Below, piece by piece: positions 19,520 to 23,607 of a stretch of 34,171 nucleotides of DNA. The position numbers were made by a program, and so were the translations under genes. Under the pieces are notes generated by a model, which was not told the origin of the DNA, did not search any database, and worked only from the letters and a program-made list of their open reading frames with translations. The DNA is taken from the NCBI GenBank assembly GCA_012729815.1, contig JAAYCJ010000305.1:1-34171 (forward strand), in the 5' to 3' direction. Numbering within the stretch: position 1 is the stretch's first letter; every line of letters starts with the position of its first letter. This DNA comes from Phycisphaerae bacterium (lineage in GTDB: Bacteria > Planctomycetota > Phycisphaerae > JAAYCJ01).

Positions 19520-20569
19520 TCAGAAATCCCGCATCGTCCAGCGGGTTGTTCCCGGCCCCAACGATGCTCTGGAAACAAACTCCGCCGGCAACACGATTTG
19601 CCGGGGCAACGGCACATCGTACCGCTGGGCCTGCTCCAGGGCCATAAACGCCTGTCGGACATACGCCCGCGCGTCAAGCCGGAACGTCGCCAGCGGCGGT
19701 TCAAGTTGCTCAGCCAGCGGCACATCACCGCAACCGATCAGCGACATCTCCTGCGGCACCGCCACTCCCGCCTCCCGAATCGCGTGCAATGCACCGGCCG
19801 CCATCCAGTCACTGGCTGCAAACACCCCGCTGCATCGCGGCAGCCCCGTCACCCCGGCCAGATACTCCCTCATCACCTCATAGCCCCCTCGCCAGTTCAT
19901 CTTCGCCGCCAGTACGCACGGCTCGTGCCCCAACAACCCCGCCACCTCGCGCCACCCCTGCTCTCTTCGGGCTGACCCCGTGTGGTGAGACGGCCCGCTC
20001 AGGAGCAGCAGCCGTTCGTGCCCGAGGCTCACCAGTTGCCGGTAGGCCTCCCGGCCGATCCACACGTCGTCAAAACCGATCGAACAGCCGAAGTCCGCCC
20101 CGCCGTCCCCCAACACCACCGCCCGCGACAATAGGCGTGCAAACCGCTGCCGCGTCTCCGCCTCCAGCCGCCCGATCACGATCGCCGGCCGATCACCGCC
20201 GACCGATCCGCCATCGCACGAAAGCGGGACAAGCCGCACCCCGCGCGACGCCGCCACCGCGGCAATCCCGCCCATCAGACCCGCCACCAACGGATCATCC
20301 GCCTTCACATGGCCGCAGAGCACGCACACCTCGCCCAAACGCGCCTGAGCCGGGCACAAGTAGTTGCCGCTGCCGTGCTTACGCACCACCAGATCGCGCT
20401 CAGCCAGCTCCGCCAACACCTGACGCACATGCCGCCGACTGACCCCGAAACGCTCGGCCAGATGCCGCTCCGATGGTAACCGCTGTGGTTCGGCCAGTTG
20501 GCCCACGGACGCTTCCATCCACGTCCGTAAGCCCTCACATCCATCCTTACTAAAAGCTTTTGCGACCAT
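19520..20569 (-). CDS. GntR-LacI hybrid transcriptional regulator
   Basis: A 349-residue sugar-responsive regulator. The N-terminal 70 residues are a GntR winged helix (LPSERHLAERFGVSRRHVRQVLAELAERDLV followed by the wing RKHGSGNYL). The rest is a LacI/PurR-type periplasmic-binding sensor (GFDDVWIGREAYRQL, HERLLLLSGP, GVFAASDWMAAGALHAIREAGVAVPQEMSLIGCGD). This AraR-like architecture usually represses carbohydrate genes until a sugar binds. ATG 20569 is preferred; GTG 20596 would add nine residues. The gene probably controls itself through direct repeats at 20590-20628, and perhaps the SGNH-like gene downstream. The effector is not known. Confidence 0.9.
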   Translation of the reverse strand: MVAKAFSKDGCEGLRTWMEASVGQLAEPQRLPSERHLAERFGVSRRHVRQVLAELAERDLVVRKHGSGNYLCPAQARLGEVCVLCGHVKADDPLVAGLMGGIAAVAASRGVRLVPLSCDGGSVGGDRPAIVIGRLEAETRQRFARLLSRAVVLGDGGADFGCSIGFDDVWIGREAYRQLVSLGHERLLLLSGPSHHTGSARREQGWREVAGLLGHEPCVLAAKMNWRGGYEVMREYLAGVTGLPRCSGVFAASDWMAAGALHAIREAGVAVPQEMSLIGCGDVPLAEQLEPPLATFRLDARAYVRQAFMALEQAQRYDVPLPRQIVLPAEFVSRASLGPGTTRWTMRDF

Positions 20570-20589
20570 ACTTATAGCCTGTACTATGC

Positions 20590-20628
20590 GTACCACTTTC
20601 GAGCCACTTATTATGTTTATTGTACCAC
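20590..20628 (-). promoter_or_regulatory. Promoter and paired GTGGTAC repeats of the regulator gene
   Basis: GTGGTAC occurs twice on the minus strand (20628-20622 and 20596-20590), 32 bp apart, or three helical turns. The first copy overlaps TACAAT (20624-20619), which lies 17 bp from TTGTGT. This is the layout of an autoregulated promoter. The binding protein is inferred to be the GntR-LacI hybrid. Confidence 0.35.
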
Positions 20629-20782
20629 ACTACGCACCAATACACAACTCTTCTTCCCGCAGGCCCGAGAATCTCACGAAGATTTCATGGCCTCCTCATA
20701 GAATCATGCCCGCCATGCCACCACCCCGTAAACCAAGTCGCCATCGAGGCTTACGAGGGCCAATTTTTTCGGTGGTTTTTCG

Positions 20783-20810
20783 TTGACACCGCAACATGTT
20801 GTGTTATGGT
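20783..20810 (+). promoter_or_regulatory. Predicted nrdJ promoter
   Basis: A perfect TTGACA (20783-20788), 16 bp and TATGGT (20805-20810). It is the best promoter between the divergent regulator gene and nrdJ, and it implies a leader of about 250 bases. A palindrome fills its spacer. Confidence 0.6.
20789..20804 (+). promoter_or_regulatory. Candidate NrdR box 1
   Basis: CCGCAACATGTTGTGT matches the known 16-bp NrdR box (acaCwATATwTtGTgt) at about 12 positions and is nearly palindromic. It lies between -35 and -10 of the nrdJ promoter, where a repressor would block polymerase. Confidence 0.5.
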
Positions 20811-20820
20811 TATCTCTCGC

Positions 20821-20836
20821 CTACAATTGATTGTAT
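20821..20836 (+). promoter_or_regulatory. Candidate NrdR box 2
   Basis: CTACAATTGATTGTAT has perfect six-base arms (TACAAT/ATTGTA) and matches the NrdR consensus at about 11 of 16 positions. Its centre is 32 bp from that of box 1, the spacing known for tandem NrdR boxes. Confidence 0.5.
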
Positions 20837-21056
20837 GGGCACCAGAATTCCAACAGTGGGAAACCGGAAACGCTGGGACCAGCACTTCGGAGTTGAGAAT
20901 TGCTGCAATCTGTCCGGGGAGACGCTGTCACCGGACCGAAGGAAGCGGAGTTGGTGCGAAAGGCGCACGCTTGGGAGAGCAGAGCGCGGCACGTTGAAAA
21001 GTCACGATTTGGGTCAACGGAGTCTGCGCGTCCTGTATGGGATGCGCTATGGATAA
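20835..21056 (+). CDS. Possible 73-aa leader ORF upstream of nrdJ
   Basis: An ATG inside the nrdJ leader opens a 73-codon frame whose TAA falls within the ribosome binding site of nrdJ (TAAGGAG). The product is basic, with Cys pairs (ENCCN) and no known domain. The placement would allow translation of the leader to affect nrdJ, but there is no ribosome binding site before the ATG and the stretch also has RNA-like pairing. It is probably not a conserved protein. Confidence 0.2.
   Translation: MGTRIPTVGNRKRWDQHFGVENCCNLSGETLSPDRRKRSWCERRTLGRAERGTLKSHDLGQRSLRVLYGMRYG
20885..20968 (+). ncRNA. Predicted structured region in the nrdJ 5' leader
   Basis: CTTCG (20885-20889) pairs with CGAAG (20937-20941) and encloses two hairpins: ATTG/CAAT (20899-20909), and GTCCGG/CCGGAC (20912-20917 with 20931-20936), the second with GAC/GTC inside its loop. 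Together they make a compact three-way junction. A further hairpin GTGCG/CGCAC with loop AAAGG follows at 20954-20968. No known riboswitch class, including cobalamin, was recognised. Hand folding only. Confidence 0.3.
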
Positions 21057-21069
21057 GGAGTCAGTAACG

Positions 21070-23607
21070 ATGGTTCGTTCGATGGATCGACAGGCCACGA
21101 GCCGGATGGATAACACGGGCACGGATGCCGGACGCACGCGGGGCGAGCTTCGCCTCTCCGAAAACGCGCGACGCGTACTCGAGGCGCGGTACCTCAAGAA
21201 GGATAAGAACGGCAATCCGCTGGAAACCGCTGAGGAAATGTTCCGACGCGTCGCCCGGACCATCGCTTCGGTCGAGGCCCGGTACGGAGCGGGCCCAGCC
21301 GATCTGGCCGACCTCGAAGAGCAGTACTACGAGCTGATGGCCTCCGGCCAGTTCATGCCCAACAGCCCCACCCTCATGAACGCCGGCCGGGAAATGGGCA
21401 TGCTCAGCGCCTGTTTCGTGCTCCCGGTCCGCGACAGCATCGATGAGATTTTCGAATCCATCAAGCACACCGCCCTGATCCAGAAGGCCGGCGGCGGCAC
21501 CGGCTTCGCCTTCGACGAGCTCCGTCCCACCGGCGACTACATTCGCAGCTCCGGCGGCACCACCAGCGGGCCGATCAGCTTCTGGCGGGCCTTCTCCGAG
21601 GCCACCAACGCCATCCAGCAGGGCGCCTTCCGCCGCGGCGCCAACATGGGCATGATGTACATCCATCATCCCGACATCCTCAAGTTCATCCACGCCAAGC
21701 AGGACCTCCAGCAGTTCACCAACTACAACATCTCGGTCAAGATCACCGATGCCTGGATGGACGAGTTCCTCAAACAGCCCAACTCGCCCCACGTGGCCCG
21801 CAACCCGCGGACCGGCGAGGAGTTCTACTTCCCCAGAGACCTGGACATCTGGTCCTACACCGTCGAAAGCCTTCTGCCCGTGCGCAACGAGGACGGTTCG
21901 CCCCGGGAGGTCAAACCCGGCTCGGTCTACACCCGGCAGGAGATGTGGGATCTGGTCGTCCGCAACGCCCACGCCACCGGTGAACCGGGCGTTGTGTTCA
22001 TGGACCGGATCAACCGCGACAACCCCACGCCCCACCTCGGCCGCATCGAAGCCACCAACCCCTGCGGCGAGCAACCGCTGCTGCCCTACGAGGCCTGCAA
22101 CCTCGGCAGCGTTAACGTCGGCTACTTCGTCGGCGACGAGGGCGGCGAAGCGGCCTTCGACTGGGACGGCCTCGGCGACGCGGTCGACGTCTCGGTCCGG
22201 TTCCTCGACGACGTGATCGACGCCAACCGCTATCCGCTGCCCCAGATCGAACAGATGTGCAAGGCCAACCGCAAGATCGGTTTGGGCGTGATGGGCTTCG
22301 CCGACGCCCTGTTCAAGCTCGGGATCGGCTACAACACCGACGAGGCCGTCCGGTTCGCCGAGGCCCTCATGAAGTTTGTCAACGAACGCGGCCACCGGAT
22401 GTCGGAAAAACTCGCCAGGGAGCGCGGCTGCTTCCCTAACTGGCAGGGCAGCGTCTGGGACACCAAGTTTTCCAAACCCATGCGCAACGCCGCCGTCACT
22501 ACCGTCGCGCCCACCGGCACCATCAGCATCCTGGCCAATTGCTCCAGCGGCATCGAGCCGCTCTTTAGCCTCGTGTTCTACCGCAATGTCCTCAAGGAGC
22601 GCAAGGACAAGAGCCCCATGCTCGAAATTAACGAGCAGTTCCGCCAGGCTGCGGTCGAACAGGGATTCTACAGCGAAGACCTCATGTCGCGTATCGCCAA
22701 GGAAGGCACCCTCGCCCACGTGGCCGAGGTGCCCGACGAGATCAAGCAGGTCTTCGTCTGCGCCCACGACATCGAACCCCAGTGGCACCTGAAGATGCAA
22801 GCCGCCTTCCAGCGCCACTGCGACGCCAGCATTTCCAAGACCATCAACTTCCCCCACGACGCCAAGGTGGAGGACGTGGACCAGATCTACCGCGAGGCCT
22901 ACCGCCTCGAGTGCAAAGGCATTACGGTGTACCGTGACGGCTGCCGTCAGGATCAGCCCATGGCCACCGAAAAATCGAAGAAAGCTACCGGTAGTGAGCC
23001 GGGGGCGGCAAAGGGAGAAGCAAGCACGGAGGCTCCCGCCCCCAAATTTGAGCCGGTCGCGGTGCCCGAATGCCTGCCCGCCGTCCGAATCCGCCAGGTG
23101 ACCCCCTTCGGCCACATGCACGTGAGCATCACGGTCGATCCCCGTCGCCAGAAAGAGTTGGAGGTCTTCGCCCAGCTCGGCAAAGGCGGCGACGTCGCCG
23201 CCTCCGACCTCGAAGCCATCTGCCGCATGATCTCGCTGTTCCTGCGGTCCGGCGGAAGCCTGCGCCACGTCATCGACCAGCTCAAGGACATCGGCTCGAG
23301 CCTGAGCATTCCCAGCAAGGGCGGGCGGATCATGAGCCTCGGCGACGGATTGGCCAAGGGCCTCCAACGCTACCAGAAAGCTAAACAGCGCTTCGGCCTC
23401 CAGGCCATCCTGCTCGGCGAGGCCGACCTGGCCGAGTTGGACCTGCCCACCACCAAGGCCGAACGCAAAGCCGGCGGCAACGGTGGCAACGGCGGCGGAA
23501 ACGGCGGGGCCGGAGCCTACAAGCTCAAGTGCCCCGAGTGTGGCGGAAACTTGACATTTGAAGAGGGCTGCGTAAAATGTCATGGTTGTGGGTATGCGCA
23601 ATGTTAG
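21070..23607 (+). CDS. nrdJ: Adenosylcobalamin-dependent (class II) ribonucleotide reductase
   Basis: An 845-residue class II enzyme that reduces ribonucleotides to deoxyribonucleotides with a B12-derived thiyl radical and needs no oxygen. The radical Cys is Cys332 in TNPCGEQPL with Asn330 and Glu334. The redox pair is Cys115 (LSACFVLPV) and Cys343 (YEACNLGS). These three cysteines have the spacing of the Thermotoga-type NrdJ. Nucleotide-binding landmarks are MPNSPTLMN and [10 protein letters not shown]. Residues about 640-790 include the TSCPD-type extension. A Gly/Asn-rich linker leads to a C-terminal zinc-ribbon-like tail (Cys821, 824, 834, 837, 840, 845) thought to pass on reducing power. 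AAGGAG nine bases before ATG 21070 decides the start. Tandem NrdR-like boxes suggest dATP-responsive repression. Confidence 0.96.

Follow-up and report, generated by a model that had tools for sequence, protein, structure and literature searches.

What controls nrdJ, the gene for a B12-dependent class II ribonucleotide reductase, in a Phycisphaerae bacterium? The question arises from a 54-base-pair (bp) element upstream of the gene (positions 20783-20836) in contig JAAYCJ010000305.1, whose whole 34,171-nucleotide stretch we refer to as the window. The original prediction, made from the letters alone, was that two palindromes resembling the binding site of the repressor NrdR (NrdR box) lie here 32 bp apart. 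We consider it very probable (roughly 0.93) that in this element the nrdJ promoter incorporates a two-box NrdR operator, through which NrdR, sensing deoxyadenosine triphosphate (dATP) and adenosine triphosphate (ATP), would repress nrdJ. The features concerned are listed below, together with their state in L003, a relative from the same family whose NrdJ is 72% identical.

20783-20788, plus strand: nrdJ promoter -35 hexamer, TTGACA, from the promoter scan; TTGACT at the matching place in L003
20789-20804, plus strand: predicted NrdR box 1, CCGCAACATGTTGTGT, occupying all 16 bp between -35 and -10; position kept in L003 and other relatives
20805-20810, plus strand: -10 hexamer TATGGT, from the promoter scan; 16-bp -35/-10 spacer
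20821-20836, plus strand: predicted NrdR box 2, CTACAATTGATTGTAT, its centre 32 bp beyond that of box 1; in L003 the counterpart at this distance is CTACAATGAATAGTAG
21070-23607, plus strand: nrdJ, class II ribonucleotide reductase dependent on B12; scores above the cut-off for NF006417 and TIGR02504

Read directly, the inner CAACATGTTG of box 1 is a perfect palindrome within a box that is 12/16 palindromic as a whole, and box 2 is likewise 12/16 palindromic, with a non-canonical TG at its centre. The centres lie 32 bp apart, leaving a 16-bp inter-box spacer, and the claim that this spacing is typical of NrdR holds, as the usual spacer is 15-16 bp (PMC12051234, PMC12176259) and binding is good across spacers of 14-17 bp (PMC12051234). 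Scored with an NrdR consensus matrix, box 1 ranked first (14.4 bits) and box 2 third (8.4 bits) of all 16-mers in the 34-kilobase window, and together they formed the top pair among all pairs at 31 or 32 bp. When the upstream 530 bp were shuffled 100 times by dinucleotides, the pair score was never reached, and 32 bp was the best spacing for the pair among the 43 tested (17 to 59). A promoter scan of positions 20500-21100 returned a single sigma-70-like promoter, at 20783-20810 (10/12 consensus match), which puts box 1 inside the promoter spacer, as had been proposed and as the relatives agree, and box 2 at about the transcription start, itself a predicted position. With 4 and 5 mismatches to the Escherichia coli-type consensus in the two boxes, the sequence match alone is only moderate; a strict consensus search allowing 3 mismatches gave no match, and an exact tandem box pattern, which proved too strict, found none in the organism's own genome. 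The case for an operator is carried by spacing, promoter position and conservation.

Conservation was followed in 77 nrdJ upstream regions, those of 76 relatives and the window. The L003 upstream region aligns with the window over 60 bp only, a block comprising the -35, box 1, the -10 and box 2, whilst the leader has diverged; as the score of 48 compares with a maximum of 41 in 50 shuffles, the weight of this alignment lies in the exact layout and not in the score. A tandem pair reached by at most 1 in 100 shuffles was present in 61 of the 77 regions, although the relatives are not independent of one another and these pairs do not represent 61 separate events. The preferred spacing among the 43 was 31 or 32 bp in 40 of the 77, and the histogram of partner distances had its peak at 31-33 bp, with 54 of the 74 counts. 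Two layouts recur, one as in the window, with box 1 in the promoter spacer and box 2 downstream, the other with box 2 in the promoter spacer and box 1 upstream (e.g. L011, L028 and L048). The conservation sought for the original prediction is thus present, both in L003 and in the pairs found in most planctomycete nrdJ upstream regions. Other spacings also occur: pairs at 33 bp (17-bp spacer) are seen in a group of planctomycete loci (L042, L044, L046, L047, L053, L067 and L069), and pairs at 41 bp (25-bp spacer) stand at L040 and at the nrdR loci L091, L099, L100 and L104, resembling a spacer, longer by one turn, that has been reported for Streptococcus pneumoniae nrdDG.

The genome also encodes the repressor that such an operator would need, a single intact, full-length NrdR (TIGR00244, 181.9 bits against a cut-off of 124.65) with a Zn-ribbon and an ATP-cone, whose solved-structure matches are all NrdR entries (e.g. 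9fxk and 7p37). Its translation contains R12, D15, R17, R26-29 and R37, the DNA-contact residues reported for Streptomyces NrdR (PMC9110341). A direct scan of the nrdR promoter itself (L001:1669-1735, minus strand) revealed TTGACG-c-ACTCAATATCTAGTGG-TTTAAT, followed 32 bp on by GTAGCACATGTAGTGA. Here too the box ACTCAATATCTAGTGG lies between TTGACG and TTTAAT, in the promoter spacer, the same layout as at nrdJ, to which nrdR is unlinked; this tandem operator suggests that nrdR represses its own transcription. The nrdJ site shows sequence-level features of an NrdR operator, namely two 16-bp box-like palindromes of moderate match, a 16-bp spacer, a position at a predicted reductase-gene promoter, an encoded NrdR and retention in relatives.

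Several observations weigh against this reading. The scoring matrix that ranks the pair best at 31/32 bp, the scan called for by the original prediction, was written by hand from the published NrdR consensus. A hold-out model, built only from the sequences of 17 other loci with the window excluded, gave one match up to E-value 10 in the 5.47-megabase (Mb) genome, and this was the nrdJ site, but the match is weak genome-wide (12.8 bits, E-value 0.7) and the same search did not report the nrdR promoter. A clear tandem pair was not found in the scanned upstream stretch of eight planctomycete nrdJ loci (L045, L050, L054, L056, L058, L061, L063 and L064), yet a search found nrdR in six of these genomes, all but those of L045 and L061, so that co-occurrence does not discriminate.

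In the circuit that we envisage, dATP together with ATP or adenosine diphosphate would bring NrdR into its DNA-binding tetramer, whose two sites fit boxes about three helical turns apart (PMC9110341, PMC12176259). Bound to both boxes, the tetramer would mask the start region as well as the promoter spacer, turning nrdJ off; where ATP dominates, NrdR would be released and nrdJ made. Binding, nucleotide switch and repression in this organism are predicted by analogy, the switch from what the NrdR structures of Streptomyces and E. coli show, and at this strength the nucleotide-sensing repression first proposed for the locus is supported.

Could the two palindromes resemble NrdR boxes by chance, within an ordinary promoter? 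Both depart from the strict consensus, as such an origin would allow, but no shuffle reaches the pair score, the spacing is sharply fixed among relatives, and the promoter-box block is the sole upstream stretch that aligns in L003 where the rest has diverged, which makes chance the least probable of the explanations weighed here. The palindromes might instead be sites of another palindrome-binding repressor, for which a candidate adjoins nrdJ in divergent orientation:

19520-20596, minus strand: regulator combining GntR-type DNA-binding and LacI-type sensor parts

Its adjacency is what speaks for it. Against it, boxes of this kind also stand at the promoter of the unlinked nrdR and, ahead of nrdJ, in numerous planctomycetes and outside that group, and the two-box spacing of 31-33 bp is an NrdR signature; we regard this explanation as highly improbable.

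It is also very unlikely that nrdJ is controlled mainly through its leader of about 230 nucleotides, for instance by a B12 riboswitch. The leader is long and the genome holds a cobalamin riboswitch elsewhere, yet no Rfam family was detected in the leader even at E-value 10, bar one chance-level match, its folding is no better than that of shuffled sequences (z -0.64), and it does not align with the L003 leader. RF00174 and related cobalamin families gave no match in the nrdJ leader, and when the window, this leader and 14 relatives were scanned against Rfam, nrdJ showed no RNA element. The only cobalamin riboswitch match in the genome (L108, G000:C289:1252-1430, minus strand) lies near an open reading frame with a PEP-CTERM-like end.

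The NrdR operator remains our favoured account, and it would act on a simple reductase repertoire. The B12-dependent reductase placed downstream of the element in the original prediction is confirmed by the two family matches listed above; its start is probably the ATG at 21070, nine bases after an AAGGAG at 21055-21060, with further in-frame ATGs at 21037 and 21049. The Pfam domains of NrdJ are reductase domains and TSCPD, with no ATP-cone; across the genome, an ATP-cone was found in NrdR alone. Searches of the genome detected no NrdD and no other reductase large subunit, leaving nrdJ as the only reductase detected, absences that are provisional in an assembly of 97% completeness. An apparently single reductase without an allosteric ATP-cone offers a clean case in which to ask whether deoxyribonucleotide (dNTP) pools can be balanced by dATP feedback that acts on transcription alone.

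Class II reductases are already known to be under NrdR control in Streptomyces (PMC9110341) and Pseudomonas (PMC4409342), and the nrdJ operator described here is a further, well-supported case. At the Streptomyces coelicolor nrdRJ promoter, as here, two NrdR boxes stand about three helical turns apart at a class II nrdJ promoter, and the repressor shares the Zn-ribbon/ATP-cone architecture and identical DNA-contact residues (PMC9110341). There, however, nrdR and nrdJ form one operon and a class I enzyme is also present, whereas here nrdR stands apart from nrdJ with an operator of its own and no reductase other than nrdJ was found. Pseudomonas aeruginosa nrdJ is likewise class II with two boxes, the first overlapping the promoter, and its repression by NrdR is known (PMC4409342) whilst that in the window is predicted; P. 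aeruginosa differs in possessing three reductase classes. A known nucleotide-sensing repressor circuit is thereby extended, by sequence-level evidence, to the planctomycetes, a little-studied group; a literature search for NrdR with Planctomycetes returned few joint mentions, none of which, judged by title, had NrdR in Planctomycetes as its subject.

Among the relatives, additional boxes occur further upstream. Of 38 loci anchored on their promoter, 23 had a further box within 260 bp upstream; 50 shuffles averaged 5.4 such loci and never exceeded 12. The figure of 23 takes in the ordinary partners at -31; apart from these, -65/-66 accounts for six boxes and the range -165 to -170 for seven, offsets that serve as a lead only, as the anchors were chosen by motif and the loci are related, maybe by descent. 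No distal box was found in the window, which shows a single pair, unlike the Listeria monocytogenes nrdAB operator, whose proximal and distal box pairs (PMC12051234) provide a precedent for those of the relatives. We tentatively, and with considerable doubt, propose that in this lineage, with a sole reductase that lacks an ATP-cone and NrdR as the only ATP-cone protein, overall dNTP supply may be set by transcription alone, and that in part of the Phycisphaerae a second box set, about 65 or 168 bp upstream, may let two NrdR tetramers, as an octamer, loop the promoter. A conserved stretch in the 'leaders' of six relatives, considered as a candidate new RNA, was rejected as such, being the likely promoter with the proximal NrdR pair, whilst the higher-scoring pair there is the distal one. 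The boxes at about -168 from the promoter box belong to L005, L006, L007, L008, L009, L014 and L016, and those at about -65 to L022, L025, L026, L060, L062 and L074; the distal boxes sometimes form a full second pair, at offsets that are near-fixed and roughly helically phased.
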